Shown: piece after piece, positions 1,811 through 62,585 of the stretch
Layout of the letters: the number at the start of each line of letters is the position of its first letter
Position numbering within the stretch: the stretch's first letter is position 1
Source: Rhodamnia argentea
Taxonomy: Eukaryota > Streptophyta > Magnoliopsida > Myrtales > Myrtaceae
Direction: 5' to 3'
Assembly (NCBI RefSeq): GCF_020921035.1
Contig: NC_063154.1
Span: 16,651,861-16,715,860 of the forward strand
Length of the DNA: 64,000 nt
Translations under genes and position numbers: made by a program
Notes under the pieces: generated by a model
Database searches by the model: none
The model's input: the letters and a program-made list of their open reading frames with translations, nothing else
What the model was told of the DNA's origin: nothing

Positions 1811-2611
1811 ATGAAGGTGGAAGTGCAATGGAAGAAGTTGGTGAAACCGACAGCTCCAACGCCACATCACCGGCAAAAACTGAAGCTATCTCCGATTGAT
1901 GGGATTCAAGTTCCCTTTTATGTAGGCAGTAACTTCTGCTATAGAGATAATGCTGAGAATCGGGGAGTTGATACTCTTCAGAGGCTTCACCGGATGGAGA
2001 AGTCGCTTTCTGAAACCCTAACACTCTTCTATCCTATGGCAGGGAGATATACCGAGGACGACGGTTGTTTTATTGACTGTAACGACCTTGGAGTCGAGTT
2101 TGTCCATGCCAAAGTGGACGGCCAGATTGATCAGCTTCTCCATGGAGACCTCGACATGGAGTTGATCGGTCGTTTGTCGCAATTTCCCACCAACGTGGTA
2201 GGCAATCCATTAGTTGTGATTCAAGTGAATACATTTAAGCGCGGCGGATTAGTGGTTGGCCTTCGCTTTATACGCAACATCGGTGACGTGTGCACCTTCG
2301 CCATGTTCATTAATTCATGGGCTACCGCTTTCCAGGGTAACATAGACTTGGTAGAGTGCCCAAATTTTGAGTTGTACACTCTATTCTCAGGTAAAGAGCC
2401 GGTGGTTCGATATCAGCCTCCACCGCCTACTGGCAACGAGCAATTCGTCACGAGCAGGTTCAAGTTCAGCAGTGATGCTATATTAAAGCTGAAAGCTCTA
2501 GCTAGGGACGATGTGAAGGATTCGATGGCCAACAATTCCCAGCCTTCAAGAGTGGAGGTTGTTTCAGCACTAATAAGTAGGGCTCTCATTGATATTGATC
2601 GGAACAGATGA
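1811..2611 (+). pseudogene. BAHD acyltransferase (vinorine synthase-like), truncated, catalytic His lost
   Basis: BAHD enzymes transfer an acyl group from acyl-CoA to alcohols or amines in specialised metabolism, in the cytosol. The 266-residue frame starts MKVEVQWKKLVKPTAPTP, the usual N terminus of this clade, and contains the LFYPMAGR block near residue 75. The catalytic HXXXD site should be near residue 155, but the sequence reads R-N-I-G-D: His is replaced by Arg (codon CGC where CAC would be His) and Asp is kept. The frame ends after VVSALISRALIDIDRNR, at the point where family members continue for about 170 residues. The structural DFGWG motif is absent from this frame and I did not find it downstream. 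Loss of the base His and of the whole C-terminal half makes acyltransferase activity very unlikely. A shorter expressed protein is possible but not indicated. Confidence 0.8.
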
Positions 2612-3136
2612 TCCTTCAGAGACATACTTTGTCTATCACCTCCTACTTGAAAAGCACCATTGGTATGGGTAGAAATACCATTCAAGACATGCAAAAAAGC
2701 ACACGAGAAAAAAACGAAGATGCCTTTAACGATACCTTGGAAGTTCCTTGAGAGATCATATGGACATTGACTCCATTGGTTTGTAAAACATTAAAAGCTT
2801 GGCACAAAATCTAGCAAGAATAAGGAGAACGACAATAAGACTGAGTTAAGAGATGATTGGCTAATTCCCAGCAGATTGTGTGGCTGCAAAAATGCACGGA
2901 TGAGGCAATAATGGACGACATTCAACAGCAAAAGCGACAACCATTTTGTAGCTGACAAAAGCTAAACATAATAAGCAATGCGGGCACATGCAATGCTACA
3001 AATAAGAACAAAAAAAGAAGAAATGGTTTTCAAGTTTCAACAGTCAAAAACCAATGGTTGTGGTTCTATATCCATGGGACACCCTTATTAGCACAAAAGT
3101 ATACTCTCCAAGGATACATAGACATACAAATTCATA

Positions 3137-3177
<41 letters not shown>

Positions 3178-3206
3178 GGATTCAAAAGGAAAGTCCCTAA
3201 GCTTAC
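2612..3206. other. Unassigned sequence between BAHD remnant and UPF1 fragment
   Basis: No recognisable coding sequence. A (TA)n run lies near its right end. I looked here for the left CACTACAAAA terminus of the CACTA element ending at 7504 and did not find it. Confidence 0.5.
3139..3173. repeat. (TA)n microsatellite
   Basis: About 16 TA dinucleotides, next to the UPF1-like splice donor. Confidence 0.9.
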
Positions 3207-4497
3207 TTGCCCCTGTCCTTGTTTAGCCATGTGATAAACTATTGCCGCTGAAGTAACGGTTTTGCCCATGCCAGGAGGTTCCTGAATCAAACTTATGGGC
3301 TTCTGGAGAACGCTCTTCATAGCAAAAACCTGATATGCAACAACCATTCAGTAAGCATGCAGTGAAAACAAGAAACAAAGCAACACAGAAAAAGCAGAAA
3401 CTTGAATTAAGCCTCATGATTCACACATTATTCATGTTAAACACAAATGGATGCACACCCACAAAGAAAAGGAGGGAGGAGGGGAGAAACAACTAATTGA
3501 ATAGCCATGCTACAAAATGAATGCTTCAACCCATCGTTAGACAGGATGACGGACTAACACAAGAAATCAATTGATGCAGGAGAATTTCCAATTCACGCTT
3601 TACTCTTGCTGTGCTTTATGTAAACAAAGCCAAAATGATATCAGTAAATCTTTTCCACCCAAAAAAAGGATATGTATAAGTAGTTTACACCCAACAAGAT
3701 CAAGCATGCCAGAACTCCAAATTAACAAACATTAATACATGGTAAAACGGTCAAATACTATGCTAGAATGGATAATAAACCTCAGCCATACATGATAGAC
3801 GGTGAGACAGAAGACAAAAGTACCTGAGATGCATTGAGCTCAGAAGTCCAGGTGCACCAAACCGACGAGGCGATGTATTCCGGACCATTTGATCAACCTC
3901 ATGGCCCAACAAGTGGTGATAGACATATTTGTAAGAAGTAATAGCATTAAACAGACCCAAGTTGCAGATATAAAGTGTGGAGAGGCCAGCAAAGGCACAA
4001 GAGCAGATAAGACAAAATGCTCTATCAATAACAGGAGGCCGACAGGCATCAAAATCCCCAACTTCATTCATGGAAAAAGGACATCTAGGACATCCCCACA
4101 ATGAGGACAGTAGAGCATAATCTTGAATATTATGCTTGAATACGCTACAATGTGTACCACCACATGTTCTAAGACTCACACCCAACATTCCCCACCATAT
4201 TCAGATATCTAAAAGGACTGAACAATGATACATGTACTTATACATGGTCTGAGGGCATTACACCCTCAAAAATTAACAAGGATTACAAAAAATTGCTACT
4301 AAAAATCAACCCTGAAGGAAAAAGAATGTTAGACCAAAACAGATATTAAAAAAATGATGAAAATGGAGATTAACCCATCCACCGACACTTGTTTCGTCCA
4401 CAGCAAATGTCTTGATTGCTCCATGCATTCTATCAAAACTTGTACTCTTCCAAACAAAGTCAACACTGAAACCGTGGTTGACATCAACTGGAACACC
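3207..4497 (-). pseudogene. UPF1: UPF1 RNA helicase exon fragments (three exons)
   Basis: UPF1 is the ATP-dependent RNA helicase of nonsense-mediated mRNA decay. Three blocks on the minus strand are in the right order and orientation. Exon a (about 4378-4497) reads [18 protein letters not shown] and onward to the DETSV block. Exon b (about 3824-3928) has YVYHHLLGHEV and PRRFGAPGL. Exon c (3207-3329, exactly 41 codons) has [10 protein letters not shown] followed by the Walker A region. GT donors follow exons b and c and an AG acceptor precedes exon c, so this is a genomic copy and not a processed one. Damage: in Walker A the expected GPPGTGKT reads EPPGMGKT; one base is missing between PGL and SELNASQ; the acceptor before exon b reads CAA. 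The rest of the helicase core is absent. It is a fragment and cannot make UPF1. Confidence 0.85.
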
Positions 4498-4529
4498 CTA
4501 AACATTAAAGCAGCCTATAAGGACAGAAT

Positions 4530-4630
4530 GGCCTGATCTGGCGTGTCCTCAAGTTCTTCCAAACAAAGTCTTCTATCTTGTTTATTTGTTGTGCACTGAT
4601 CTGGCGTGCCCTCAAGTTCTTCTACCACAT
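4530..4630. repeat. Short direct repeat (64-bp spacing)
   Basis: The phrase GATCTGGCGTGYCCTCAAGT occurs at about 4534 and 4598, in sequence between the UPF1-like and poly(A)-polymerase-like exons. It may be a local duplication or a scar of rearrangement. Confidence 0.6.
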
Positions 4631-4893
4631 GATCAAGCTCCTACTCAGAAACTATCGATGGGTCCTAAATGGACTCTATTTTTCCACAGGATGCATACGA
4701 CACTTGAACCAACAACTCCAAACCTCAGATACCAACGGCATTTACAAATCAAATTTCATACTTGTGATTAGCACAAAAAAGTAACACAGAATGGCCTCAC
4801 TGCTTTCAATAAATCGTCAGATTTGGCAAAAACAAAAGATTAACCAACAACAGCTCCTCCCATGGAATATCAATTTAACTACGAATCATAGAC

Positions 4894-5499
4894 CTCTTGT
4901 GCAATACGACATAGATACGCAGATTTAAACTCAATCCAAGCAACAGCATCCTCAATATCTAAACCACATATAACCCACAATTTACCAGCCCAATCTGACG
5001 GAGAATCATTTCTATCTTCAAAGCCTCCTCTTGGCTCTCATAGAGTCCAGCATCGACCAAAACCTGCGTGCCCAAGAGAAATTCTAGTGAAACAAATGAA
5101 ATTCGCAAACACTAAACAAAAAACAAGATGCCAAGAAAACAAAAATCCAACCTTCTCCAACTCCATGCTTCTCTGGCAGGAGACGCCTCGATGCAGGCCA
5201 GCGGCTCGGATCGGCGTCTCGCAGTCAAGGAATGCAGCAGGCGATCGTCGTCTCCTAGAAGCCGAATCTTGGACAGCACCAAGGCCCTCGAAGCCATGAA
5301 CTTGGACCCCATCTCGCGCAACCCATTGAAGCGGAGGAACTCCTGGTTCAAGAGGTCGAGGCGCTCGAGAGGCAATGGGAACTATGCGATCTGGCGGAGG
5401 ACGAAGGACGGATTGCCGCGAAATGGGCTGAGGTTGATGGACTTGAGGGATGTGAAGCGCCGCGAGAGGAGGGAGTCGAGTCGCGGGGGTCAAAAGGTT
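4894..5499 (-). pseudogene. Poly(A) polymerase (PAPS-like) exon fragment, degraded
   Basis: Nuclear poly(A) polymerase adds poly(A) tails to pre-mRNA. On the minus strand an upstream exon ends MELEK at 5152 with a GT donor. After a short intron an acceptor CAG at 5064-5066 opens an exon reading VLVDAGLYESQEEA. Joined, this fits the ELEK-(F/V)LVDAGLYES block near the N terminus of plant PAPS proteins. Beyond it the frame meets a stop after about 35 codons. A second frame stays open to 4894 and contains EDAVAWIEFKSAYL, which resembles the later EDAxAxxF block only weakly. The GC-rich sequence above 5200 is not recognisable as PAPS and may be another gene's first exon. The family call rests on about 18 residues plus a matching splice junction. 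Confidence 0.5.
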
Positions 5500-5549
5500 G
5501 GGGATGAAAAGAGAAAAGCAAAAGAAAGAATGCCGTAAATGGGTTTTGT

Positions 5550-6420
5550 TGCGGTCTTTAGCGACGAAAACGTATTTTCGTCACCAACTTAGCAACGAAA
5601 AAAGGATATGTCACTAATTTAACGACGAATAATTTCTTTCGTCGCTAATTTAAATATTTTATTTTTTATTTTTATTCATATTTCATTAGCGACGAACTAT
5701 TTTTTCGTCGTTAAATTGAATATTTTATTTTTCATTTTTTCGTATTATATTAGCGACGAAAAATCTAATTCGTCACTAATTTGAATATTTTCTTTTTTCT
5801 TTTTATTCATATTCAATTAGCAACGAATCTTTCTTTTGTCGCTAATTTAGCAATAAATAATATGTTTCGTCGCTAACCTATTTTTTCGTCGCTAATTTGG
5901 TGAAGAATAATTTGTTTCACCACTAATTTAGCGACGAATGATTTGTTTCATCGCTAATTTAACGACGAGCCCTTTTTTCGTCACTAATTTTGCGACCAAA
6001 TAGTTTCGAAATAATTTATTCGTCCCTATTCTTTTTTATTTTTATTCATATTCTATTAGCTACGAATTTTTTTTTCGTCGCCAATTTAGCAACAAAAAAA
6101 TGAATTCATTGCTAATTTGAATATTTTATTTTTTTATTTTTATTCATATTCTATTTTCATATATTTTCAATTTCTTAATTTATTTAATTTTTATTTATTC
6201 TATTTATTATTAAATATTTTCTTTCTATTCTTATTTTTGAAAAAAATAGAATTCAAAATAATTCAAATTTGGAATTCTATCCTATTGGAAATTTCGTCGC
6301 TAAATGAGCAATGAAAAATGGAAACAAATTGAAGCTTCTTAAAGTTAGCAACGATTTCTATACTATAGAATTCAAAAGAATTCGCTAAATTAGTGATGAA
6401 ACAATCTTCGTCGGAAAAAG
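5550..6420. repeat. CACTA-type subterminal repeat array (GCGACGAA motifs)
   Basis: Dozens of copies of TCGTCGCTAATTTAGCGACGAA-like motifs in both orientations, each itself palindromic, separated by AT-rich spacers. The same motif fills both flanks of the complete CACTA element at 8251-20038. Such dense short subterminal repeats are the usual transposase-binding regions of En/Spm elements. Confidence 0.85.
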
Positions 6421-6689
6421 GCCTCATCCTTGCCTAGTAAAAAGATCTCATTCGCTAGCAGATTATCCATGCTCAATCTCACCAAGAACAGAAAAAGCGA
6501 CATCGGCCTCCTAAATGCATCAAAAGTAGATGTCACAATCTGAAACTTTTTAAAATGTATCACCACCGACCATCAGCATAGAAATAGAAATAAGCACAAG
6601 CATTATCTTATTATAAATCAGCATAGAAATCAACCAAGATAATTGGAAATAAAGAATTATTTGTAATTAGGATCAATAACAACAATGTA

Positions 6690-6830
6690 ATTGATAATGA
6701 TTTGTAATTGGGAGCAAAGTCTAGAAATTGATTCAACCCAATCTGAAACTCATCAACTAATCCTCGATGTTCGGGTAAGTTCTTATTATACATCCAAGCT
6801 CTATCTTTTTGCATTGTTCCCGCACACGAA
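6690..6830 (-). pseudogene. tnp2 transposase N-terminal remnant
   Basis: The minus strand reads MQKDRAWMYNKNLP followed by a DEFQIGLNQFLDFA block, nearly the same as the start of tnp2 at 18.7 kb. Coding similarity ends right after this transposase-associated domain start. This is an internally deleted sister copy of the larger element. Confidence 0.8.
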
Positions 6831-7049
6831 TTAAAAATTTGTAAAATATTAAAAATATCATATCTAATATTTAACACTCTTAATTAAGACCATAAAATTT
6901 AAAAAATTAAATTCTATTTGTGACAAGACAATTATTTTGAAATTGAAAAAAAAATAGCCATGTCAAAAACACTTACCCAAGTATTTGTTTGAATTATTTA
7001 TAGTAGAACATGGTTAATCTGATGAGAATTGCAAATTTCATCGTTAATT

Positions 7050-7504
7050 GTATAAATTAATGAAGAAAAGATGTTGGTGGACTATATAGCAACAAAAAAA
7101 ATCTGTAATTTAGCAACGAACTATTTTTTCGTCACTAAATTACAGAAGTTCATTTACCGATGAATCACTTTTTTGTCGCTAAATTAGCGATGAGTCACTT
7201 TTTCGTCGCTAATTTAGCGATGAAAAAGTTGTTCGTCGCTAATTTCATCGCAAATTAGAGACTAATTTTTTTTCGTTGCTATTTTTATCGCCAATTTAGC
7301 GACAAATATTTTTTCATCGCCAAATTGCAACGAAAAAGTTATTCGTCACTATTTTCATCGTTAATTAGAGACGAATTTTTTAGTCACTATTGTCATCACA
7401 AATAGCGACAAATTTGTTTTAGTCGCTATTTTCGTCATAAATTAGCCACGAATTTTTTTCGTCGCTAATTTTTCGTGGCTTAATCCTTGTGTTTTTTTGT
7501 AGTG
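7050..7504. repeat. Right subterminal array and terminus of the deleted CACTA
   Basis: GCGACGAA/TTCGTCGC motifs are packed up to the GTAGTG end at 7504, in the same arrangement as the last kilobase of the element ending at 20038. Confidence 0.85.
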
Positions 7505-8247
7505 ACTAGGCTAACTAAGTTTGGGCTGACTTCTTGTGAATTGGGTTTAATTCCATTGATTGTTGGCTTTTAGTATTAGATTTAGCTTAGTTTCGTTTCA
7601 TTAGAACTCATTTAGTTAGGAAAATTATATTTCTTGATTTCTAGGGTGACTCGTGCATTTACTTTGTTGATTGATGATTTGTGTGTTTGTTAACACTAGA
7701 TTTTAGTTGATGACTCATTAAGGTCAACAACTTGAAATTTAGATTTCTGATCGCGACAGTTTTTATTTTTCAAAAAAAAAAAAAAAGGGGAGTCATCTAG
7801 CATTTGAATTAGCGTAAGTTTTACATTTACAAGTCACTTGCATTTAGGTTTCATAGAGTCAAAATTTTAATTTGGAGTTGACTTTCTGGTTAAACTTTGA
7901 TTGAAAAGTCAAGCCTTGGTCAAAATGCGATTTTAGGATAACAACCATGAAATTACCCCTTTAGACTATAGTTGTATGATTCTACTCATATAGTCTAAAC
8001 ATAAGCAATATTGATATATATTTCTTTTCTCAAGTATCAGCTACATATGAAGACTTAGATGCATTTATCAAATTTAGAGATATAGATTATTGTTTTGTTG
8101 GCTTCAAAATCTATTAGGAATTTTTCTCAACATTATGGACTCAAACATAGAACATCCATTTGGCATTACCACTACCTTATCTTTAAATATTATGGTGGTT
8201 TAATGTTGAAACCTAATCATTTGGCTTCATTGAAAACCTGGATGTGC
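7505..8247 (+). other. Flank between two CACTA elements; last bases are copia reverse transcriptase
   Basis: Mostly unassigned AT-rich sequence. The last roughly 60 bases encode FGFIENLDVP, which belongs immediately before the copia segment resuming at 20042, so they mark the left half of the CACTA target site. Further left I could not read copia protein. Confidence 0.55.
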
Positions 8248-8250
8248 CTT

Positions 8251-9420
8251 CACTACAAAAAAACAAGCCTTTAGCCACGAAATTTGCCACGAAAATTTTG
8301 GCAAAATTCGTCGCTAATGGATTTTGCGACGAATTTTGCCACAAAAAAAAAATTGTGGCTAATACGGCGTCGCAAATATTAGCGACGGAAAATTTTAATT
8401 TTGTAGCCAATTTGTGACGAAATTTACGACGAACACAGTTTGTCGCCAATTTGTGACGAAACGTTATTGTCACTAATTTGCGACGACATTTGCGACGACC
8501 GTAGTTGATCGCAAATTTGCGACAATATTTGCGACTACAAGAGTTCGTCGCAATGGCGTTTGTCACAAAACTAAGGCCAATTATAAAGTTTTAGCACGGT
8601 ATTCGCGACCAAAATTGCCATGAAAAATTTTGGAAAAATTTTTCGCTAAATTATTTTTGCCATGAATTTTACGATGAAAACGTATTTGTGGCTAATACAG
8701 CGTCGCAAAATATAGCGACGAAACAATGAAATTGCGTCGCTAATTTACCACGAATATAATCCGTAGCTAAATTTTGCAATGAAAAGCATATTTCATCGCA
8801 AAATTCCGACAAACATTCTTCGTCGCTAAAACATGTTTTAGTGGCTAAACTTAGTGACAAAAATTTATTTCGTCACTAAATTTAGCAACGAATATTCGTT
8901 GTCGTCCCTACATTTAGCAATGAAAAATTTTATTTCGTCGCTAAATATTAGCGACGAAAAAACTTTTGGTCGCTAATATTTAGCAACGGAATTGTTTGTC
9001 GCTAAGTGTAGCGACAACATTTAGTATTCGTCGCTAACCGGAGCGACGAAGAATTTTTTCCGTTGCTAAATTTAGTGAGGAACAGTTATGAGGAAAGTGA
9101 ATTTCGTCGGTGAATATTTGATTTTAGCAACGAATAGTTTATTTCGCCCCTAAATTTAGTGACGAATTATTGAATCCGTCGCTAAATTTAGCGATTAGTA
9201 GTTCATTTTGTCGGGCAAAGAGCAGTTGATTTCGTACCCTTATTTGCGACGACTTGCCATGAAAATGTAGCGACGAATTTTTTTTTTTTTTGTTGCCACA
9301 AGCATTGTTTGGGAATAAATTTAGCAATGAATTTTGCAACGACCAGGCATGGAACGAATTTTGCAACGAAATTTTATAATTTATGATCATACAATAAAAT
9401 AATTTCTTGATGACCCCTCC
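8251..9420. repeat. Left subterminal repeat array
   Basis: Continuous TCGTCGCTAA/TTAGCGACGAA motifs in both orientations starting from the terminus. Open frames across it are products of the repeat and not genes. Confidence 0.85.
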
Positions 9421-9439
9421 TATTAGCTCTCTAACCAAT

Positions 9440-10640
9440 CAATTCCTCCCCCCCCCAAAAAAAAAAAGAAAATAAGATCCACTTTCAACCTACTTTCCTC
9501 TTCTTTTTTGCGCACCTCTGTGTGTGCCCTCCTACTAGTCCACGTAGAACAAAATTTTGCATCGGGTGCAAGGTATGATGCTTGGGGCCACTCTGCAGCA
9601 ACAATTTGACAACCGTCGAAGTCCGTTTTCACCCGAGCCCCATATTGAGAGAACAAATTAGTCTGCAGAAAGACAGCAAAGGGAACATAAAAGGGGAAAG
9701 GAATATTGAAAGTCAAAGGGATAGGGAAAGGAATTTGTGTACTGTGTAGCAATCCAGCTAACATAAGACAATGGCCAAAAACCAAAAAAATAAAAACAAG
9801 CATTATAATGAAAATAATGTGCCAAAAATATTGAAGTCATACATAAATGTCCAGATGAGTGAAAATGTCAAAGTGACCTCTATACAAAAGTGCCTCTATG
9901 ATCAAACACATTATCTAATCTAGAACCATCGAAAAGATTAAAACGAAAATACAAGCATGAGCTTGATCGACTCATACGAAAGTTCCTCTATGATCGATCA
10001 TGAAGATAGTGACCTCTATTTGTTTTTTTTTTTCAACACCCTAGACAGTGGTTTTTTAAACACCATCGGCAAGAAAAATTGGAGCATTCACTCATAAATT
10101 TCCTTAAGTTTGAGCTAACAAGTCAAATCCAGAGAAAAACCAGATCTACAAAAACCGCAATGCTGTAAACAAACAAACAAGCAAGCACAAAGGACTAACC
10201 CAACCAAACGAGGGTCGGATCTAAATCCACAAACGAGAAGAACAACACCACAACACCAACACAGCGGCTTATAAAAATAACTTGCCTTAAACGTCGCCAA
10301 GAGCTTAGGCGACAAAAGGATATGCGACGCCGGGTTGGAGTTTGTTCCTTCTTCTTACGGGGTGTTGCGGTTCTAGGGCGAGCGGGGGCCTCGGATGACT
10401 TTGAGGCGAGGAAGCCGAGAAGTGAAATTGGAAGGGCGAGGTTGAAGGTCGGACGACTATCGCCGTCGCACGTCGGTCGCTCGCCGGGGGTGGAGGACGA
10501 ACGAGGTTGCGATCGAGTTGGGGGAACTCACGATGAGGAATGGGTGTGTTCTGTTCACGCAGGGGGTGAATGAGAAGAGAAGAGAGAGAGGGAGGGTGTT
10601 ACGTAGCCAAAAATCAAGAGTGGAGAGATCCCATTATTGG
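9440..10640 (-). other. Exon-like, partly GC-rich insert between two subterminal arrays (possible captured gene)
   Basis: Unlike its AT-rich surroundings, 10310-10560 is GC-rich. On the minus strand it ends in AAGGCAAGT, a plausible splice donor, near 10285. About 600 bases further a plausible acceptor (TTTCTGCAG, around 9660) opens a frame including GARVKTDFDGCQIVAAEW and APDAKFCSTW down to about 9530. This looks like a first exon, intron and second exon of a host gene. I do not recognise the protein. It could instead be a diverged second transposon gene. Confidence 0.4.
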
Positions 10641-10659
10641 GCTACCCGCGGGACTTAAA

Positions 10660-11660
10660 AAAATTTGCACAAAAGGAGGTTAGCGACAAAGAATAATAAT
10701 TCGTTGCTAAATCGTACCTATTTTCCAACGACATATACTTTCTGTCGCTAAATTTGAAGAATAGAATTTGCGACAAAACAAGTAGTTCGTTGCTAATTGC
10801 TCAATAATAGCTTAGCGACAAAACTAACAAATTATTCGCTGATTATTTTTTTCATTTTTATTATATCATATTAGCCAAGAAAAAATATATTCGTCGCTAA
10901 ATTGAATAGTTTTTCATTTATATTTAAAACATGTAGCGACGACAAATATATATCGTCGCTAACTTAGCGACGCACATAGTTATTCATAGCTAAATTTAAT
11001 AATTTTTTAATTATATTTCTCCCATATTAGCAACGAAAACCATAATTTGTCGCTACATCGTTACTATTTTCCGACGAAATCAACGTTCGTCGTTAATTAG
11101 GGACGACATAAATTGTTCGTCACTAAATTTGAAAAAAAAATTGCAACGAAAAAAGTAGTTCGTTGCTAATTGCTTATTAGTAGGTTAGCCACAAAAATAA
11201 CAAATTAGTCGCTGATTATTTTTTTAATTTTTTTATATCATATTAGCCACGAACAGAGTCATTCGTCGCTAAATTAAATAATTTAGTTCTAATTTTCCGA
11301 CAAAATTACCGCTCGTCGTTAATTGGCGACGAACGAAACCTTTCGTCGCTAAATTTTGAGAATCGAATTTGCCAAAAAAAGAGTCATTCGTGGCCAATGG
11401 ATCAGTAGAAGATTAGTGACGATATGGATAAATTCATCACTAATTATTTTTCATTTTTATTTATGTAGTATTAGCGACGAATATTAAATTTTGTTGCTAA
11501 ATTAGGGACAAATATATTATTCGTCACTAATTTAGGGACGAATAATATATTTTGTCGCTAAATTAGCGACAATTTTACCAACGAACTTTTTCCGTTGCTA
11601 ATTAGCGACGAAAATTCTAATTAGAGACGAACTTTTTCCAAAAAATAAAATTGAAATATA
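10660..11660. repeat. Internal GCGACGAA repeat array
   Basis: The same motif family as the element ends, lying between the exon-like insert and the 3' end of tnp2. An internal array bounded by foreign sequence suggests the insert entered within the original subterminal region. Confidence 0.8.
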
Positions 11661-11900
11661 AAAACATAGCTGGCCATATAATAATCTACAACAACAATAA
11701 TAATGATAATGACAATTAAATTGTGTGGTTCGTCGCCATTTACCAACGAAACTTTTCGGACGCCCTATTACATTAATAATAACAACCATAATAATAACAA
11801 TAATTATGAAAATAACAATAGTAATTATGTCAACAACAATAACATACGTCGCAATAATAATAATAATAATTACACATAATTAGTAAAAAGTTATAAAATC

Positions 11901-14384
11901 CTAATCTTCATCTTCCTCATCATCTTCGTCTTCACATTCGTTATCGCCTTGATCTTCATCTTCATCGTCATCTTCTTCATGAACATCATCTTCATCTTCT
12001 GTCTCAAAATCAGATTTTTCAACACCTTCTTCATTTGATTCACGAATTTCAGTTGGATCCACATCTATCACCGCTCCACGTGGATCTCGTAAAGTCGGAA
12101 TGTTATATTCCTCGGTTTGAACCGTGTTACAAACTTCCTCTTGTTGATAAGCTGTATCCTTCCAGAGTTTCTCGATTTTTCTTCGAGCTTTTGTTTTACA
12201 TACAGCCCACCAATCAGCTTTGTCACATTTCAAACTAGGATATGATGCATAATATACTTGAATTGTTTATTGTGCCAAGACAAATGGTTCATATTTCATA
12301 TACATTTTCTTGTGATTTATTTCAACCAAATTAAACTTTGTATGCACCTTCATTCCTTTCACGGGGTCGAACCATATGCATTTAAATAACACAACCCGCA
12401 TTAATGGTCCAGGGTACTCTATCTCTATGATTTCATCCAACAAACCATAAAAATCATCTTTTGCATTGCCTCCATTAGATGACCGAACACACACACTACT
12501 ATTCATTGTAGCCTTTCCCATTCTGTACTCTCGAGTATGAAAATTATACCCGTTTATGAAATATGATGGCCAAGTTCGTACCCTTGATTGTGGATCCCAT
12601 GACAGATGATATAGCAATCCTTGCTCTCCGCCTTGATCATGATTATTGTGAACCTAAAGTTGCACACGCAAAGTCAATAATATTTTTTTAATTAATGATT
12701 TATAAAATATTAATAACTTGTTTTTTGTCCATAGGCAACTTACATGTGTTTTGAACCATGCTGCAAATTCTTCATCGCACAAACGGTCAAACTTATTTGG
12801 TGGTAGTCCATACATTGAAGTTTGAAAAATCCTACAAATACATTTTATATATTAGAAAATGTTTGACACACAATAAATAAAAATATTTTCAAAAGTACAC
12901 TTACTGGAAGTATGGCTCTACTTACGGACAATTTAGCGGAACATATGTATGGGCTGCCCGTCATTCTTCGTCTATTAAGTAACGAAACTTACATGCGCCG
13001 CTTGGTCGACCAACATAATTGAAAATAGAGAATGATTTGCAGTTTAGATCAATGGGGCCCTCATCATTTCTTCTTGCTCTCCGCCTCTTGCCTTGCACGT
13101 GTGGCTCAAAATAGTATGATGCAAATATTGTCACTTCTTCCACAATATATGCATTACAAATTGAAGCTTCTATACATGCCTTGTTTTTCACTTTTTTCTT
13201 CAAGTGATATAGGAACCTAGTTGCAATAGGAAGAAGTTTATCAGAACAATAACTAATAAAGTAATTCAAATTTATGTAAAAAATATTTTACCTCTCAAAT
13301 GGATACATCTAGCGAAATTGGACGGGACTCGCAACTTTGGCCTCATAAGGCAAGTGAACTAAGAGATGCTCCATTGAATCAAAGAACGATGGAGAAAATA
13401 TCCTTTCTAAGTTGCAAAGAATGATTGGAACATCTCTCTCCGGTTTCTCCATGTGTGATACTTTTAACACTGTCGAGCAAATATCATGAAGGAAATTGCT
13501 TAACTCTGTGATGGCGCCCCATACAAAGTTTGGTAGAAGTTCCTTCAAAGCTATTGGAATTAGTCTTTCCATAAATACGTGACAATTATGGCTCTTCAAA
13601 CCTGTTAACTTGCATTCATTCAAATCAACACATCTCCCAAGGTTCGAAGAGTATCCAGCAGGAAATCGCACATATTTCAACCATTGACAAACAACTCATC
13701 TCTGCTCCCTGTCCAATGTTTAAACCGCTTTTGATTTTGGTTCTCTGCTACTTGCATCTACATCTAGTGATGGTCGATCACAAATAACTCTCATATCTTT
13801 TCTTGCATTCAAGTTGTCTTTTGTTTTTCCAGTGACATCCATCACAGTATTTATGACATTGTCGAAAACATTCTTTTCTATGTGCATGACGTCGAGATTA
13901 TGATGAATAAGATGGGTCTTCCAATATGATAGATCCCAAAATATACTGCGTTTAGTCCACTTATGTGTGCTTCCGTACGCATTATTCGTGCCATGGGGGT
14001 TTTCAACAACAGTGGGAAAGTGATGCACTCGCTCCCAAATTTGATCACCGGTCAACCTCTATGGTAAGGGTGTTCTTTCAATCCTATTCTTGATGAACTC
14101 TTTTTTATTCCTTCTGAATGTATGATTTATCGGCAAAAATTGTCTATGGCAGTCAAAATAGCTGGCCTTTTTACCATGTTTTAATTTGAATGACTTTGAT
14201 CTCTCCATACATATCGAACATCCTAATATCCCAGCTATACTCCATCCGGATAACATTCCATAAGCTGGAAAGTCGTTTATCGTCCAAAGAAGAGCAGCCT
14301 TCATTACAAATGTTTGATCGGTAGAAACATTATACGTAAGAACACATTCATCCCATAACTATCGTAACTCCGCAATCAATGGTT
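11901..14384 (-). pseudogene. tnp2 transposase, C-terminal part
   Basis: Continuation of tnp2 on the other side of the nested LTR. In order on the minus strand: the end of the tnp2 catalytic region (HHNLDVMHIEKNVFDN at about 13890), a DUF4218-type block (ECKLTGLKSHNCHVFMERL, 13680-13309), a linker with intron-like gaps, a DUF4216-type block (YHLSWDPQ, PLMRVVLFKCIWFDP; 12617-12267), and a very acidic tail rich in Asp/Glu (11901-11990). In-frame TAG stops lie at 14359-14361 and 14059-14061, and the frame is lost again near 13690-13720. The order of blocks is normal for plant CACTA transposases. It is inactive as read. Confidence 0.88.
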
Positions 14385-14389
14385 GCATA

Positions 14390-17300
14390 TGTGACGCCCG
14401 GGAAATTTGGACTTTGTAAATTTGCCCGAATTCAATAAAAAGGAAGAAATTGAATTTTAGTCGGCGCAAATTTTTGGATCACAAGGACATAAGTGACGAT
14501 TTTTGGACGAGTCCCGGAATGTCGTTCGATTTCGATTGGGTCTCACAATCATGGTCATCGCGACTTAGGAATTTTATTCGTCGCGCCTAGACCTTTCCCC
14601 GGATCGAACCTAGCCCGTAGAAATCCAAATTTTATTCCCAATCGATTGAGCCAAAAATCCGATCAGTCCCGAATTGTCAAATTACGGAACCGCCCTTGGA
14701 TATTATACGTATAAGATGAAGAAAATAAATTTTGAAGTGATTGTGGACCCCACCTTCAGTCAATCCTCAGCCAACCCAGTCAAAACTCACATGACTTTTT
14801 CTCTCTCTCCTCCCTCTTCTCTCTCCCGCCGGTCTTCTTCTCCTCTGTTTCACGCGAGCTCCTTTCCCCCACGCTGAACCGAACACCATCCTTCTCCTTC
14901 GTCCAAGTTTTCTTTTGTGCGACAGCCACCCCCAACCTTCGTCCGCCATTGCTCCGCCACTCCACCACCTTTTCGACCACCGCGAGTCGCCGGACAGCCG
15001 GGGAACAGCCCGATCGCGCGCCTGCTCTGTTTTTGTGTACGTAGGCTGTTCGGGGCTCCGATCGCCCTTGCGGCCACTTCCGCCGCCTCCAACCACCAAG
15101 CCATCGTCGTTCACCCTCCCCACCGCCCTCTCAACCTTGTCCCGCCGTCCGTACCCCGTCGGACCCCCGCAATCAGCCCCGAAACAGAACCGACGCTCCT
15201 CTTCCCCTGTTTTCGCGTCGCCGGTTCGCGCCGCTGTTTCGGCCTCCTTCGCCGTGACCCACTGCCCGCCGACCACCCTAAACGGTCACCCTCGACCTCT
15301 CACAGCCCCACGAAGTCGCCGGAAGTCGATCGCCGCCCGTAGAGCTCGATTTGAGCCCCGGCCAACCTCCCCTGTTCTGCTCGTTTTCCCTTGTTTCTGC
15401 ACCGGTTTCTGCACCGCTGCTGTTTGGCTGCTTCCGGCCGCCGTCCGCCGCCCCCCGGTGATCCCAAAGGTCGGCCTCGACCTGTAAGTGAGTCCCCCAG
15501 CCTTCCCAACCTCGCCTCGGTTCTCGAGATCAAAATTTCCCTCAATTTAGCCCCGATTTCCCTGTTTTTACCACCACCGGTTCTGTTTTTTTCGGCTTCC
15601 GTCGCTCGCCGGAACTCCAATCGCCGAGCTGCTGCCATTTGCAGCGATTTCACCGCTGAACTCGTCCTTGTTTTCGGCCGTGAACAGTGTTCTTGGAACA
15701 GTACCGCCGGTGAACAGTGTTTCCGGCGTCAACAGTGTTTTACGGCGTGAATAGTGATTTTCGGGCCTGAGCCTCGAAAATCGTGTCCGACCCGACCTCG
15801 ACCACCGTTTTTGGTGAGTTGACCCTAATCCTTGGTTAGGGCGCTAATTGCGCCTAGAATTAGTTATCTAGTTGGTAAGGAATTTAGGTAGATTTGATTA
15901 TGGTCGGATTAGTTAGAAACCCGATTTAGGGTAAATGGCCATAATCGATTAAATTAGAATTGTCTATGGCTAATTGATGTTAGGCGAAATTGATTGTATG
16001 TTGTGATTTGATCGCGAGCGAGCGATAGGTTAAGGACGAGCGATCGATTAACGACTATAAATCAAATTGACTAATTAATGACTCTGGCACGAAATTGAGC
16101 CTTTATGTGGCCTAATCGAATTGGTTAATTCGTGTTGAATTGATGACTTTGTTTGGGCGGATCGCCGCGTTGAAATGTTGATTTGAGTGTCCTGATTGCT
16201 CGTTGTGTGAATTGGTGTTTGTTTGGGAATTAATTGTCCCGTGTGTCTTTGCGGCGTCTATTTGGTAGTCTGCATATGCATATGACCGTGTGCAAAATCA
16301 AAGACATATTTTAGCATGAAAATGGCCTTGGGCTGAGTCTTTGAGCACGTTGTGTGAGCATCCGGCCTAAATCAAAGAGAATAAATTGATTGATGTGTCG
16401 GGTGTGCTGTATGGTCATATGAAGGAACGATGATGGGTTTTCCTGGCAAGTTCGTACTGTACACTTAGTACACACCATACCATTTTTGTGGAACCACACG
16501 ACTTGCCAGAAGCATGATAATTCATGCCCCGTATGGTACGTACGGTTTTAAGGGATTATCAGATGCTGGTCGCAGCTTGTGATGGACCGAAGCCTCGTAT
16601 AGGGATGCCTACTTGCCGTGCCGTGCGGGGTGCACTGGATACACTGCTTGTAGTAGCCGTTGCCAAGAGGGAAAAGGAACGTAGCCTGGTCCCGCCGGAA
16701 GAGTGCGGGATTGCATTAATTGTGAGAGTCGATCACGCCGATCGCGTGGATCCTCATCACTGTGGCGCCATGAGCACGATCATCGTTAATAAATGGACTT
16801 GTGTGGTGTCCAGTGCATACTTGTGAGTGTGATGTGTGTTCAGTTGGTTGTCTGATGTGGTTGTTGAGTGGAGTCAAGCATTGCATTATGTGTGGTCAAG
16901 GTTTGGTAAGTATGCATGTGGGTGATTATTGCCATGTGATATGATCGCTAGATATATGTCTATATCGTGATTTTTATAATCCTCGTGTTTAGGAGGTTAC
17001 GGGTGAATCAATGTCCTAATCGAGCTTAGGCTTGATTCATTGAGATTTTTATCTCACCCCGTTGTGGGAACCACTTTCGGGTCCCAAGTGATGGAGCTTT
17101 GCGGATACCAAGGCCAGGTTATGAGAGTAGTCTTTTGGAGTAGATGAGAAGTTAACCTTATCTGACCCGGTAACCTTTTGAGGTCTTAGTGAGCTGCCCC
17201 GAAGTATGGGGTTGTATATATTTCTATAGCTCAGTAGGGTTAAGACTCATCCGCCGTCCCGTAACTACATATGCTACTTTTGATTATCCGCCTTGGTATG

Positions 17301-17465
17301 TATCTCCTGCTATGCTATCCATGTTTATTTATATGTTGTCAGGGAGTAAACCGTTTCCGCATGCGTATATAGTTGATAGGTCGATAACGCGCCTGGGACG
17401 TTATCCTTCGTGACCTCGTGGCGATTTGGTGGGGATGTCGCGGACTCGAGAGTCGGGGCGTGACA
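14390..17465 (+). mobile_element. Solo LTR, 3.08 kb, inserted in tnp2
   Basis: Begins TGTGACGCCCGGG and ends CGGGGCGTGACA (TG...CA with short inverted ends). It is flanked on both sides by the 5-bp duplication GCATA (14385-14389 and 17466-17470). There is no internal gag-pol and no second LTR. This is the mark of an LTR retrotransposon removed by recombination between its LTRs. The length and TGTGACG start suit a gypsy element, perhaps Tekay/Del or Tat, which is an inference. The GC-rich 14.9-15.7 kb part has long open frames on both strands with no recognisable protein. Confidence 0.93.
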
Positions 17466-18762
17466 GCATATAAACATCTATCAACTTTTTTGGATTTTGC
17501 GGGCCGGGCATGATCAATGTCAAAAACATATAAGGTGTCTTCATGCACATACCAGGTGGAAGATTGTATGGAGTTAAGATAAGCGGCCAACATGAATAAC
17601 TTTTTCCTGATTTCCCAAATGGGGCAAATCCATCAGCACAGAGACCTAACCCGATGTTTCGAGGCTCCATCGCAAACTCAAGGTATGTTCTATCAAAATG
17701 TTTCCATGCTTCTACATCCGAAGGATGACACATTAGGCCCTCTTCTGTTTCATGATTTGCATGCCAAGTCATGTGTTCTGCAATAGCTTGAGAAGCATAA
17801 AGCCTTTGCAATCTGGGTATTAAGGGCAGATAAAACAATTGCTTGCATGGTCTACGCTTCTGATTATGACCTTGCCTCTTGCTAATCTTGTATCTGGGTT
17901 GGCTGCAAAATTTACAAAATTCTGCATTTTCGTCATCCCTCCAATATAATATATAACCCCTACCACATACATCAATCCTTACAACTGGAAGACATAAGTT
18001 ATCCACTAGCTTCTTCATGTCGTAAAAATCACTTGGCATAATGTTATCGCGAGGCATTGCTTCACGCATTATGTCAACAAATGAGTTGAAACAATTCTCG
18101 GACACATTATGCTCTGTCTTGATATTTAACGAGTCTTGCCGTCACGATAACTTAGTGTGGTTGTCACAACCTGCCCATAAAAGTTCATCTGCTGCTTTCA
18201 ACACTTCCCACAACCGATTAGATGTAGAAGTTTCATTATCCACATTCTCATCAAAACCCGTTACTCCCGCCCCTTCCAATTTTGGTGCATAGCTAGTACC
18301 CACTTGTTCAAATGTAGGAGCAAAATCAATACTCGCATGGTTCAATTCTAAAATAAAATTCTGACCAGCTGCATCAATCACCATCTCTCGATATGGGTTC
18401 AATTGGTTATAATAGGTACATTCTTCCCTAACTGAAAATTGGTCACTTCTTCGATATTCTTCATCCGATATAAATGATTCACCATGATAAGTCCAATTAT
18501 AATAGTTCGGAGTGAACCCAAATCTATAAAAATGTTCTCTAACTCTGTCACCCACATGAAATTTACTATTACTGCATTTTTTACACGGACACCTTAACTT
18601 ATTTCCATCCATGAACTCAAATTTACTACTAGCAAAGTCCAAAAACAGTTCCAACCCAATCTGAAACTCATCGGTCAATCCTTGACATCTAGGTAAGTTC
18701 TTATTATACATCCAAGCCCTATCTCTTTGCATTGTGTCCGTATAAATATTAAAAAATCTCAT
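17466..18762 (-). pseudogene. tnp2 transposase, N-terminal part
   Basis: The first block, from 18762, is the transposase-associated domain: MQRDRAWMYNKNLP, then DGNKLRCPCKKCSNSKFH and YNWTYHGES. An in-frame TGA follows at 18142-18144. The same frame then continues with SENCFNSFVDIM and the tnp2 domain (AEFCKFCSQPRYK, LQRLYASQAIAEHMTWH, DPSD-like HPSDVEAWKHFD, RNIGLGLCADGFAPFG, PYNLPPGMCMK), reaching KLIDVYM exactly at the LTR junction. The reading resumes at 14384 with PLIAEL. The break is therefore the LTR insertion plus point stops. Confidence 0.92.
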
Positions 18763-19089
18763 AAAATATTAAAAATACCATATCTACTATTTAATATTGT
18801 TAATTAAAACCATGAAATCATAAAAATTAAAATTCTGTTTGTGGCGAAACAATTACTTTGAAATCAAAAAAATGAAAAAAAATAACCATGTCAACAAGAC
18901 TTACTCAAGTATTGGACTGAAATCTTTATAGTAGAAAGCAGTCAACTTGATGATAATTGCAACGTTCACTTGGATTGCGAGACCTTCAAATGGACACGTA
19001 CCTAAATAAAAAAAGAAAAAGAAAAATTACTTAAGAGTCATGAAGCTTATGGCAATTGATAGAAGAAAATGGTGAAATAAACAACAATT

Positions 19090-20038
19090 TATTCTATGAC
19101 TACCATAAGACAAGAATTTAGCCACAAAATTTTTTGTAACGAATTTAGTGACAATACTATAAAATCACGGCTAATTTTGCAACAAACCTTTATTTCGTCG
19201 CTAAGTATACAATTAGCGACGGAAACCTCATTTTCGTCTCTAATTAGAGACGAAAATAAAGTTTTCGTCGCTCATTAGCGATGGAAAATAAATTCCATCG
19301 CTAATTGGCGACGGAAACCTCGTTTTCGTCGCTAATTAGAGACGAAAATGAGGTTTCCATCGCCAATTAGCAACCAAAAACATTTCTCGTCGCTAATTAT
19401 TTTTTATTTTTATTATGATTTTTATTTTGTATCGTATTAGCGACGAAAAATCTATTTCGTCGTTAAATTGACCATTTTCTTTTTCTTAATTTTTTTCATA
19501 TTAGCGACGAATAATAAATTTTGTCGCTAATATTAGTGACGAAATTAATGATTCGTCGGTAATGTTAAAATTTTCTTTGTTATTTTTATTCAAAGTGCTA
19601 ATTTTGTGACGAAAAATAAAAGTTCGTTGCTAATTAGTGACAAACGTTGATTTTCGTCGCCAAGTTTAAGAGAAGAATTTGCGACAAAAAAGATATTCGT
19701 CGCTAATTAGCGACGAATCCTATTGTCATCGCAAAGGAGATTGCGGAGAAATATTTTTCGTGGCTATTTTAGTCGCAAATTAGTGACGAAGTATTTTTCG
19801 TGGCTATATGCGTCGCTATTTAGCGACGTATTATTTTTCGTGGCTGTATTCGTCGCTAATGGGCGACATATTTTTTTTGTGGCTATATTAGTCGCTAATT
19901 AGCGACTAATTATTTTGTCGCTATTTTAGTCGAAAATAGCGACGAATTTTAATTTTGTCGCTATTTTCGTCGGAAATTAGCAACGAATTTTTTCCGTCAC
20001 AAAATTTTCGTGGCTAAATCCGTTGTTTTTTTGTAGTG
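19090..20038. repeat. Right subterminal repeat array of the CACTA element
   Basis: GCGACGAA/TTCGTCGC motifs run to the GTAGTG terminus. They include near-perfect inverted pairs around 19210-19400, where GACGGAAACCTCATTTTCGTC-like units alternate in orientation. Confidence 0.85.
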
Positions 20039-30164: not shown

Positions 30165-30799
30165 TGTGACGTCCTAGGACGCGTCACCGACCCAATTAGA
30201 ATTTTCTGTTTCAATTAAATGCACACGGAAGCACTTCACTTCCCCGGACAAAAATAACAATAGGGATAGACAGCAAGACGTCCCACCAATCTACATCAAC
30301 AAAATTCTATTTTATTAATAGTTATTCATTAATCATGGGAAGTACGTTTATACACATAAGCCCCACTTTAAGGCTACTTCCTATAACCCTCAAAAGTACC
30401 AGATTAGGGTTAGGGGTTAACACTACTCCCAGCTACTCCAAAAGAGATCCACATCTTTCTCAAAAATCAGGATTGCTCTCCCAAGCTAAGGGCCTAAAAA
30501 TTGGTTAACAACAAAGGGTGAGATATAAAATCTCAGCAAGTTAATGGCCTAAGCTTCGATTAAAAGGTTAACTCGGCTCGGATGCATTTAGAACCTATAA
30601 TGCAATACAGTATATATATGCACGAGTGTGCTATCACATAATCAAAGGCAACCTTACTTGCCTTGGCACAAGCCTTGCACATTATAATCTATAATCCATC
30701 GTATACAACTCAATGTAATTAATTCACTAATGCAAACAGAACACATGTCAACTTTCTCGTGGATAGTGCGCTCAAGCGTACTCTCATCATAGAGCCACT

Positions 30800-31300
30800 C
30801 ATGGCACGTCCGTTCTCACATGGGGGTCTTTCGATTCTGCTTGCATCTATTCGTTCGATCAATTACGGCCGATCAAGGGCATGCCCATTTTTCTACGAGG
30901 GTCTTCCGCGGGATTTTATCTAGTTGATCAATTACGGCCGATCAAAGGCATGTCCGTCTTTCTATGGGAGTCTCCTGGCTTACTCGGGAATATTTTCAGT
31001 CAATCAATTACGGCCGATCGAGGGCATGCCTGTCTTTCTATGGGGGTCTTCCAGCTTATCCGGGAATATTTTCGGTCGATTAATTACGATCGATCGAGGG
31101 CACACTCGTCTTCATACGGGGGTCTTCCAACTCATTTGGGTATTTATCCTTTCGATCAATTACGGCCAATCGAGGGCACGCGTCTTCATACGAGGGTCTT
31201 CTGACTCATTTGAGCATTTATCCTTTCGATCAATTACGGTCGATCGACGGCACGCCCGTCTCATACAGGGGTCTTCCGGCTTATCCGAAAATTCTCGAAT
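30800..31300. repeat. Tandem array of roughly 70-bp units in the LTR
   Basis: About seven units built on GATCAATTACGGCCGATCGA, GGGCAYGCCYGTCTT and GGGGGTCTTCC phrases. The inverse array lies at 62830-63250. Confidence 0.85.
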
Positions 31301-31549
31301 TGATGCAACTCTCATGTCGTGTATGCAATAAAGAAATTGAACGTGATCACATACACACAATTCAATCACCAATTCAGCATACTTTCCTATGCTTACATCA
31401 TTGAGAATTGTCAATCAATTAATTACATAAGCCAATTTATATGTCTATTCCCAATATCGACATCTACAATAGCATATTAATAAATAAAATGTCTAATTGC
31501 CAAAAATTAAATTACTTAATTAGAGAATAATATTAATCAAAATAATTCG

Positions 31550-31910
31550 ATAGCTTATCCTAAAATATTTGATAGCTTATCATAAAATTACCGATAGCTT
31601 ATCGTAAAATATCGATAGCTTATCATAAAAATACTTTATCATAAAAATTGTGATAGCTTATCATATAACATAGCAATAGCTTATCATAAAATAAAGATAG
31701 TTTATCATAAAATAACGATAGTTTATCATCCAAACCTAAATAACTTATCGTCAAAATCTCGATAACTTATCACAAAACCTCGATAGCTTATCATATAAAA
31801 TAGCGATAGCTTCTCATAAAATAGGTGATAGATTATCATTAAAATAGTGATAGCTTATCATATTTTGGATAACTTATCAAGTCCACTTATCACTTATCAT
31901 GATAGCTTAT
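31550..31910. repeat. GATAGCTTATCATAAAAT minisatellite
   Basis: More than a dozen units of about 20 bases, each containing the palindrome-like GATAGCTTATC. The inverse copy is at 62345-62585. Confidence 0.85.
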
Positions 31911-32448
31911 CGACCAAGGTTAACGAACCCAATCATGGTTAACAAAAGTAACTATGGTTAATTAAGCTAATCAAGGTTAACTAACTCAACCATGGTCAAC
32001 TAACCCAACTATGATTAACTAACCCAACCATGATCAATTAGATTAGTACTAAGCATATTTAGACTAATCTAAACACACCCTAATCAAGTTTAACATACTA
32101 ATCAAGGGATTAGGGTGATAACTCGCCCGATTTCAAATCCGAAAGCACCGGCGCGATGGCGGCGGCTAGGGCTACGCGTGGCTTGGTCCGACAACAACTC
32201 CGAATCACCTAGGATAGTTGACCAGCCACAAACAGAACCGAAGGGGCTATTTTTGGCTTGACGATGCTCGAATCGGCACGGAAACGACTCAAACGAAGCT
32301 TGTATGGTAACGGGAGGTCACAGTGGCTCTTAGAGGTGATTCTAATCAACAAAACAACAGCAAAAGAGGGTGATATGGTGCTGGTATGAGGGCTGGACGT
32401 GAGCAACAAGGAAGGAGGAGGTTTCGCCGAATGAAAAAAAAAAAAACA

Positions 32449-36748: not shown

Positions 36749-37234
36749 TCAATAAGGCTTTTGGCCGACAACGTTCCCAGGAGGATCATAGTTACAGGTT
36801 ACCAAAGTACCGCCTGTCGCGCATCGAGCCTTCGCGCATCCAAGCCGAACCGAGTTGCGCCACACCACCTGAGTGTAATGCCCGCAAACCTTCCCTGGCG
36901 CGCACGAGTTGGAATTGTAGTTGTAGTAAGGCTTTTCCCCAACCCACATGTTCACCGCTCTTGTGCCGGTGAGATCAGGGGAAGCCCGAGCGAGGTTCTC
37001 CCCATATGGTCCGCCCGAGTGGACTAGACGTGTGCAATCTCTGGCAAGCTTTTTGGCGTAATCACTGGCATAACTAGCAACGCGCTCGTCCCAAACGATT
37101 TGGCCCACACCGACCTGAGAGCGGGCCGCATTGTGGGCTGCAACATAGTCCTGAGGCGAGTCCTGGGCGACAGACAGAGAAATCGACGCTAGGATTAGCA
37201 CGACGAGGAAAGTGATATGGAGAGGAACACTCAT
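36749..37234 (-). CDS. PR1: Pathogenesis-related protein 1 (CAP domain), secreted
   Basis: 161 residues from the chosen ATG at 37234. An upstream in-frame ATG exists at 37273, but starting at [13 protein letters not shown] gives a normal 23-residue signal peptide ending SVA before QDSPQDY, and the family's usual length. Motifs of the CAP fold: [13 protein letters not shown], the PYGENLA Glu, [11 protein letters not shown] with its His, six Cys, and CNYDPPGN. The protein ends [11 protein letters not shown], which fits the consensus of the CAPE1 defence peptide released from PR-1 tails. PR-1 proteins act in the apoplast and bind sterols; they are salicylate- and pathogen-induced in other plants. 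Single exon, intact. The second PR-1 lies 7 kb away in opposite orientation. Confidence 0.93.
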
Positions 37235-37322
37235 ACAGGAACTCATATTGTGGCAGATCATAAAAGTTGGCAAAGGAAAGATCTTAGTTGATTGATGAAG
37301 AGATGGGCAATAGCTAAGGGGG

Positions 37323-37330
37323 TATTTATA
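37323..37330 (-). promoter_or_regulatory. TATA box of the minus-strand PR-1 gene
   Basis: TATAAATA on the minus strand, about 90 bases before the ATG at 37234. This supports the downstream start choice and a leader of about 60 bases. Confidence 0.7.
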
Positions 37331-37402
37331 TGGCGATCATGTGGAAAAATTTGTCCATGGAAATGTTGAATGTTCAAGATGGGCCGCGATGACCAGAAGA
37401 GT

Positions 37403-43921: not shown

Positions 43922-44029
43922 TTTTTTGTGCAATAACTGAAACCCTATCACCATCCTTTTTCAATCATTTGGTTTATATTATTTCCTTTCTATACAAGCA
44001 AAAGTTGTTAAGTGTAACCCTCTTTTGCC

Positions 44030-44037
44030 TATAAATA
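44030..44037 (+). promoter_or_regulatory. TATA box of the plus-strand PR-1 gene
   Basis: TATAAATA, 63 bases before the ATG at 44100. Confidence 0.75.
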
Positions 44038-44099
44038 CTTCACCCTATCGGTACTCATCATCATCACAAACACCCTCAAGCTCTTCAAATTGGTTGATC

Positions 44100-62344: not shown

Positions 62345-62585
62345 GTGATCGATAAGCTATCAATAATTCTATGATAAGCTATTGATATTTTTATGATAAG
62401 CTATCGATATTTTATGATAGGTTATCACTATTTTATGATAATCTATCGAGGATTTGATGATAAGTTATCGAGAATTTTATGATAAGTTATCGAGGTTTGG
62501 ACAATAAGCTATCGAGGTTTGAACGATAAGTTATCGGGGTTTGAACGATAAGCTATAAAGGTTTTGACGATAAGCTATCGATTTA
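62345..62585. repeat. GATAAGCTATCGA minisatellite in the LTR
   Basis: Around a dozen units of about 20 bases, the inverse of the array at 31550-31910. Confidence 0.85.

Follow-up and report, generated by a model that had tools for sequence, protein, structure and literature searches.

Pack-CACTA transposons of Arabidopsis were reportedly described by Catoni in 2019, in work that a later study cites (PMC13317346). The route by which transposons with terminal inverted repeats (TIRs) take up host genes is still argued, with tandem insertion put forward for Pack-CACTAs (PMC13317346, PMC8903248) and gap filling for animal Pack-TIRs, for which a median microhomology of 2 bp is given (PMC8277862). 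Pieces of several host genes within one CACTA element are known from soybean, in which Tgm-Express1 holds five gene fragments (PMC1947982), and host genic DNA is likewise carried by the En/Spm-related Tpn1 family of Ipomoea (PMC5105172). Here we describe an element at positions 2599-7504 of a 64,000-bp stretch of the Rhodamnia argentea genome (contig NC_063154.1; C5:16651861-16715860), hereafter the window, whose own numbering is used wherever no contig is given. We read this element as a left-truncated, decayed and non-autonomous Pack-CACTA (En/Spm) that kept the right end and the transposase start of an autonomous relative, with its interior replaced by pieces of host genes, one of which, from UPF1, was copied into a gap inside an earlier capture. 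We put the probability of this explanation at roughly 0.88.

Host gene pieces between CACTA ends

At least four host genes contributed to the block, namely those for an aspartokinase, UPF1, a poly(A) polymerase (PAPS) and an F-box/LRR-like (leucine-rich repeat) protein, and one unnamed piece of 80 bp lies with them (Table 1). A first-pass annotation of this stretch had reported UPF1 and PAPS exons with their introns, on one strand and beside a CACTA array and terminus, and this was borne out by PDB matches for UPF1, by genome comparison and by the TIR at 7494-7504. That annotation counted two gene sources, missing the aspartokinase, F-box/LRR-like and unnamed pieces, and the theme of RNA metabolism that it saw in them disappears, with the pieces captured at different times. 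It also began the element at 3207; the element itself stands, but its sequence extends from ~2600. All four named pieces lie on the minus strand in the same sense as the transposase start retained at 6814, a common orientation that we set aside as evidence (chance 1 in 8).

The best PDB matches of the UPF1 peptides were human UPF1 chains (first exon, E 1.7e-15; third exon, E 2.9e-14), followed by yeast NAM7. For the aspartokinase, the exon in a sister element at C9:16.99 Mb matched aspartokinase chain 2cdq (E 2e-15), and the exon in 2617-3053, as a query peptide carrying one donor letter, scored 26.8 bits against ACT_9 with the cut-off at 27. The PAPS assignment was examined in Pfam through the homologous exons of the C8 relative, which matched PAP_NTPase below cut-off (E 0.012 and 0.0025). 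The relative of the F-box/LRR-like piece (C3:34774710), presumably F-box/LRR-like itself, matched F-box/LRR-repeat protein 17 weakly in the PDB (whole-sequence E 9e-4, no single stretch passing) and gave no Pfam match at cut-off, with E 0.017 for an LRR model.

We searched a genome of 346.7 Mb in 74 contigs, in which copy numbers are lower bounds. With 6500-7504 as query, 272 matching pieces were obtained from 40 scored of 633 candidates, and 18 matches, the window's own among them, covered at least 890 of the 1005 bases. Whole stretches were taken for 13 CACTA copies outside the window and for the UPF1 donor, and eight more copies (L038-L045) were fetched in part. Both CACTA ends with equal 3-bp target site duplications (TSDs) were present in 11 of the 13 whole-stretch copies, to which this count applies (C5b TAG, C5a ACA, C2a CAA, C6a ATT, C7 TCA, C10 TCA, C2b ATC, C6b GTA, C4a ATC, C6c AAG and C6d TAA; one change in the right end of C6a and two in the left end of C5a), and also in a complete element further along the window (element 2, 8251-20038). 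In C1 and in the copy at C9:15.73M one end was visible in the fetched stretch.

Two genome searches gathered five UPF1-bearing elements, namely the window copy, C5a, C5b, C2a and C1, three of which (C5a, C5b and C2a) have both ends and equal TSDs. Between their CACTA ends these three, 6.3-6.4 kb in size with 6,377 bp between the ends of C5b, carry the UPF1, PAPS and F-box pieces. The cargo of C6a, C7 and C10 includes aspartokinase and F-box pieces, and the PAPS-F-box part occurs at 12 loci, window included. The UPF1 block thus travels inside CACTA elements. Recurrence of the block in other elements excludes a chance association, and capture in the window copy follows because its sisters show the block inside a CACTA and the joints are common to both. 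The proposal that this is a gene-capturing element is therefore supported, and its expected left end and 3-bp duplication are found in the sisters, the window copy having lost its left end.

At its right end the window element resembles element 2 over 6713-7040 (78%) and 7091-7504 (71%). The N-terminus retained in 6713-7040 matched Pfam Transpos_assoc below cut-off (E 0.019), and a similar peptide is present in element 2 and in several sister copies. Its subterminal repeats occur in both orientations. Pattern searches of the window found no left CACTA terminus for this element, because it breaks off against an acyltransferase gene at ~2600.

Order of capture and the joints of the UPF1 piece

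The element at C9:16.99 Mb carries the aspartokinase, PAPS and F-box pieces without UPF1, so that copies with and without the UPF1 block are both on hand. Its aspartokinase piece aligns unbroken to C11 (645 bp, 89%) across the site at which the window has UPF1, and it therefore represents the state before capture and not a later loss. Accordingly, the aspartokinase, PAPS and F-box pieces were already in the element when UPF1 entered, and ~560 bp of the earlier aspartokinase capture was replaced by a UPF1 piece of ~2.4 kb. Substitution distances to donors or relatives agree with this order, at 8.6-10.2% for aspartokinase (window, C1, C9), 8.8-9.6% for PAPS and 8.0-9.6% for F-box (both window, C5a, C5b, C2a), compared with 3.0-4.1% for UPF1 (window, C5a, C5b) and 2.7-2.9% for another part of UPF1 (C5a, C5b, C2a). 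Since the other named pieces lie 2-3 times as far from their donors or relatives, UPF1 was captured last. In a non-repeat backbone tree of 14 copies, C9 falls just outside the group (window,(C5a,(C5b,C2a))), with local supports of 0.92 and 0.82.

The UPF1 donor lies at C3:29.64 Mb, the one locus at which the zinc-binding domain of UPF1 was found, upstream of the captured part. Over all copies the captured stretch amounts to 2,393 bp of gene sequence, taking in seven exons or more, and the donor reads uninterrupted across it. With the donor on another chromosome-scale contig, the block is no normal tandem segment of host genes, and the search for intact parents yielded this donor together with the PAPS relative on C8.

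Comparison with both donors placed exact shared sequence of 5 bp at each of three joints, aspartokinase/UPF1 (ACCAA), UPF1/aspartokinase (CTCAA) and aspartokinase/PAPS (AGAAA), and the microhomology figures rest on these three of the five joints examined. When the same sequences were joined at random, at least 5 bp were shared in 0.75%, 0.73% and 0.65% of trials, respectively (100,000 trials each). The left UPF1 joint is kept in the window copy and C1, and the right in the window copy, C5a, C5b and C2a; among the five UPF1 carriers both are kept only in the window copy. A deletion between 4521 and 4569 has since removed 886 bp of UPF1 from this copy, and the filler there is a patchwork of nearby sequence (Table 1) whose templates overlap by 2 and 5 bp. 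Among 2,000 shuffled fillers, a 12-bp match in the element occurred in 17 and a 15-bp match in none. The filler has the pattern that serial template switching leaves.

Table 1. Coordinates of the window element, its captured pieces and the abutting host gene.
Feature	Position	Strand	Basis or comparison
Broken host gene for a presumably BAHD-type acyltransferase, outside the truncated element and adjoining it	1812-2601	+	92% to C5:16617121-16618704
Left-truncated Pack-CACTA, transposase-side end at 7504, reads leftwards	2599-7504	-	right TIR; genome matches; left break against host gene at ~2600
Last CACTA-internal bases left of the aspartokinase piece, then break	2599-2616	.	common to C1
Aspartokinase, left part: ACT-domain exon and flanking introns	2617-3053	-	donor comparison; donor or near relative C11:22831515-22832557
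UPF1 piece with introns; exons ~4379-4497, 3824-3928, 3207-3329	3050-4521	-	genome, PDB and donor comparison
Filler at internal UPF1 deletion, mosaic of three nearby templates (4523-4534 = 4786-4797; 4533-4559 = 4596-4622 save one base; 4555-4570 = 4446-4461)	4522-4570	.	self-comparison
UPF1 right remainder, holding the UPF1/aspartokinase joint with 5 bp CTCAA	4569-4623	-	donor and sister comparison
Aspartokinase right remainder	4611-4651	-	donor comparison
PAPS piece, introns included: last part of one exon (to 5152) and whole exon ~4986-5063	4647-5175	-	genome comparison; relative C8:1754493-1755019
Unnamed 80-bp piece	5175-5254	.	genome comparison; 90% to C10:7902433-7902512
F-box/LRR-like piece	5245-5505	-	genome comparison; 8-10% from relative C3:34774710
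Inner subterminal-type repeat array	about 5557-6400	.	repeat analysis
Transposase 5' region, remnant of autonomous element; open N-terminus MQKDRAWMYN, ATG 6814-6812	6713-7040	-	78% to 18631-18968 of element 2
Subterminal repeat array, TTAGCGACGAA / TTCGTCGCTAA units	7080-7493	.	repeat analysis
CACTA TIR CACTACAAAAA, then ACT	7494-7504	-	pattern search, sister comparison

Route of capture and its alternatives

The most likely route of capture is gap filling guided by microhomology. From the observed states before and after capture, the joints, the uninterrupted donor and the mobile copies, we infer that a break or gap arose inside an element already holding the aspartokinase, PAPS and F-box pieces, that it was filled by copying UPF1, with the polymerase entering and leaving UPF1 where short sequences are shared, and that the loaded element then multiplied through transposase supplied in trans. 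Copies later lost different parts by internal deletion, and the window copy its left end as well. A wider reading is that plant Pack-CACTAs grow by accretion, as template switching at microhomologies fills gaps in a working element, those within earlier cargo included, with sequence of unrelated genes and the enlarged product then spreads, and that gap filling was the main route for this family. The window copy, with both UPF1 joints and a triple-template scar, and the filler-free sister speak for this generalisation, to which we would give even odds.

Several observations weigh against our reading. The window copy has one terminus alone, and the tree branches that group C9 with the UPF1 carriers are short, with moderate supports. 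The PAPS/unnamed joint shows an overlap of 1 bp and the unnamed/F-box joint is without exact placement, while the PAPS, F-box and aspartokinase donors are perhaps paralogues of the true ones. Microhomology at joints is also allowed by tandem insertion, terminal deletion and re-mobilisation. Finally, the backbone (6413-7080; window, C5a, C5b, C2a, C6a, C7 and C10) shows at least about twice the divergence of most captured parts when the same copies are compared, an excess that would not be expected had whole elements simply been copied. An apparent conflict between 95% identity in UPF1 and 81% in the element ends came mostly from misaligned repeat arrays, but the roughly two-fold gap stays in non-repeat sequence. 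Because this excess includes transversions, cytosine decay alone is insufficient to explain it, and exchange between family members is possible.

The strongest alternative is tandem insertion, in which two copies flank part of UPF1, lose their facing ends and re-mobilise as a hybrid element, a route suggested for the Pack-CACTAs of Arabidopsis, with support from rice and maize (PMC13317346, PMC8903248). It would leave a left-half element, a host piece and a right-half element, as seen, and the window does contain two CACTA termini of one family 746 bp apart (7504 and 8251). Against this, both facing deletions would have to end in the same aspartokinase piece ~560 bp apart, and re-mobilisation would take ~2.4 kb from UPF1, whereas the sole UPF1 locus found reads through uninterrupted and the 16 kb around it match the window element in the UPF1 piece alone. 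This route would further require that the UPF1 allele from which the piece came has been lost. Repair synthesis is also favoured by the window scar, with its series of copied local templates, and we consider tandem insertion unlikely as the source of the UPF1 piece.

We regard as improbable that UPF1 was captured several times independently or was kept alike by conversion from its donor. Such histories would suit the finding that, pair for pair, the divergence of UPF1 and of other captured parts is about half that of the backbone on the transposase side (for example 4.4% versus 9.5% between window and C5b), but the lower divergence is also seen in PAPS and, less clearly, in F-box and so is not special to UPF1, while the sharing of the left joint by the window copy and C1, the sharing of the right by the window copy, C5a, C5b and C2a, and a backbone tree congruent with a single UPF1 capture argue for one event. 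That the pieces belong to a Helitron, a Pack-MULE or adjacent host DNA, with the true CACTA left end near 5540, might be suggested by the repeat array starting at ~5557 beside the gene pieces and the left terminus not found in the window copy, but this is highly improbable given that C5b, C5a and C2a have their left ends to the left of the UPF1 block, that these and the complete aspartokinase and F-box carriers C6a, C7 and C10 hold their pieces between CACTA ends with 3-bp TSDs instead of long Pack-MULE TIRs with a 9-bp TSD, and that the 25 longest of 117 inverted pairs in 2500-7600 fall in repeat arrays, a flanking A+T-rich stretch or an (AT)n run. Unless they are mis-assembled, the complete sister copies thus rule out a left end at 5540 and readings without a CACTA, no search aimed at the ends of a Helitron having been made.

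Decay, neighbouring sequence and comparison with known systems

The UPF1 and PAPS pieces had been described as arranged like consecutive exons of one transcript, but the UPF1 exons of the window copy are no longer splicable in succession, with the donor of exon A changed from GT to AT, the acceptor of exon B from AG to AA and 4 bases deleted from exon B; both splice sites are intact in C5b and C5a. The ATP-binding (Walker A) motif has two changes, from GPPGTGK to EPPGMGK. A live UPF1 duplicate was considered as a candidate and is ruled out by these Walker A changes, the 4-base deletion and the two lost splice sites. The proportions of nonsynonymous (pN) and synonymous (pS) differences in the window's UPF1 exons were 0.033 and 0.048, on 10 and 4 changes, and pN was lower than pS in C5b, C5a and C2a on 16, 23 and 11 changes; with numbers so low and the donor branch included, selection on the exons could not be demonstrated.

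The left break of the element falls in the acyltransferase gene, at three shared bases (TCG). In its relative ~34 kb away (C5:16617121-16618704) the reading frame continues past the break point, and the ~600 bp that follow there have no match in the window. More acyltransferase relatives lie at 15.4-15.5 and 28.2-28.4 Mb of C5 in mirrored order, as if, to judge from their arrangement, the region had been duplicated and inverted.

Element 2 is a complete CACTA of 11.8 kb with matching CTT target duplications, and its left end (8251) is 746 bp from the right end (7504) of the element studied. It contains an inner repeat array (~10680-11600) and long frames on the minus strand (17401-18768) that we take to be transposase. 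A 1-kb sequence occurs in inverted orientation at 10-1036, left of the acyltransferase gene, and at 14390-15442, inside element 2 (69% identity). Further along, a long inverted repeat (30243-32076 and 62186-64000, 63-70%, ~30 kb apart), in which three tandem-repeat arrays recur in mirrored order, would fit either a large element or two facing copies, and long open frames at 36749-37336 (-) and 43941-44591 (+), presumably PR-1/CAP-type secreted proteins, face opposite ways.

Elsewhere in the genome, seven copies at C4, C6 and C7 loci (L039-L045) match the window across the PAPS-F-box junction (5004-5465) and again from ~5466, with ~400 bp of different sequence in between, and a CACTA end is visible in the fetched stretch of three of them. 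Complete family elements with other interiors lie at C2:21.17 Mb (L028) and C6:14.11 Mb (L031). Seven open frames picked from a longer list (two of C2b, two of C6b and three of C6a) gave no Pfam match at cut-off, with weaker matches to ACT_9 and ACT in the C6a aspartokinase piece and to Anti-TRAP in C2b (E 0.033). The minus-strand frame of C2b that begins NDLCSLICAGGTKCVFCKSGK we take to be a DnaJ-type zinc-finger protein, a name for which no Pfam match passed the cut-off.

In complete sister copies the transposase start region is followed downstream by the pieces, which run in its direction, so that read-through could yield chimeric RNA. Because family copies carry UPF1 and aspartokinase pieces, cross-silencing of the UPF1 and aspartokinase donors is also a concrete possibility. 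One genome holds the element before capture (C9), copies after capture (C5a, C5b, C2a, C1 and the window copy), the donor and the exact joints, so the route can be tested in relatives and in other members of the family. Our literature search found no paper that joins a CACTA transposon with captured UPF1.

Among described systems, Tgm-Express1 likewise encloses exons and introns from several unrelated host genes within CACTA ends and, at 5.7 kb, is close in size to the complete UPF1-bearing sisters; its genes are different, and chimeric transcripts are described for it (PMC1947982). The Tpn1 family shares the non-autonomous structure, an interior replaced by host genic DNA, TIRs with subterminal repeats and 3-bp TSDs, but belongs to another plant and has chimeric transcripts on record (PMC5105172). 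With the Pack-CACTAs of Arabidopsis, rice and maize the family has in common the TIR CACTACAA and coding DNA from several loci per element, yet their model is tandem insertion with re-mobilisation and the UPF1 event fits gap filling better (PMC13317346, PMC8903248). The gap filling (FoSTeST) of animal Pack-TIRs offers filler inside an older transposable element, microhomology at breakpoints and a donor left in place, as here, but concerns animal TIR elements, and that account leaves its applicability to plant Pack-MULEs open (PMC8277862). The window element is thus of a known kind, the multi-gene Pack-CACTA of which Tgm-Express1 and Tpn1 are examples, and its value lies in the preserved sequence of steps; for this family, unlike Tgm-Express1, a pre-capture sister, the donor and the exact joints are all on hand.

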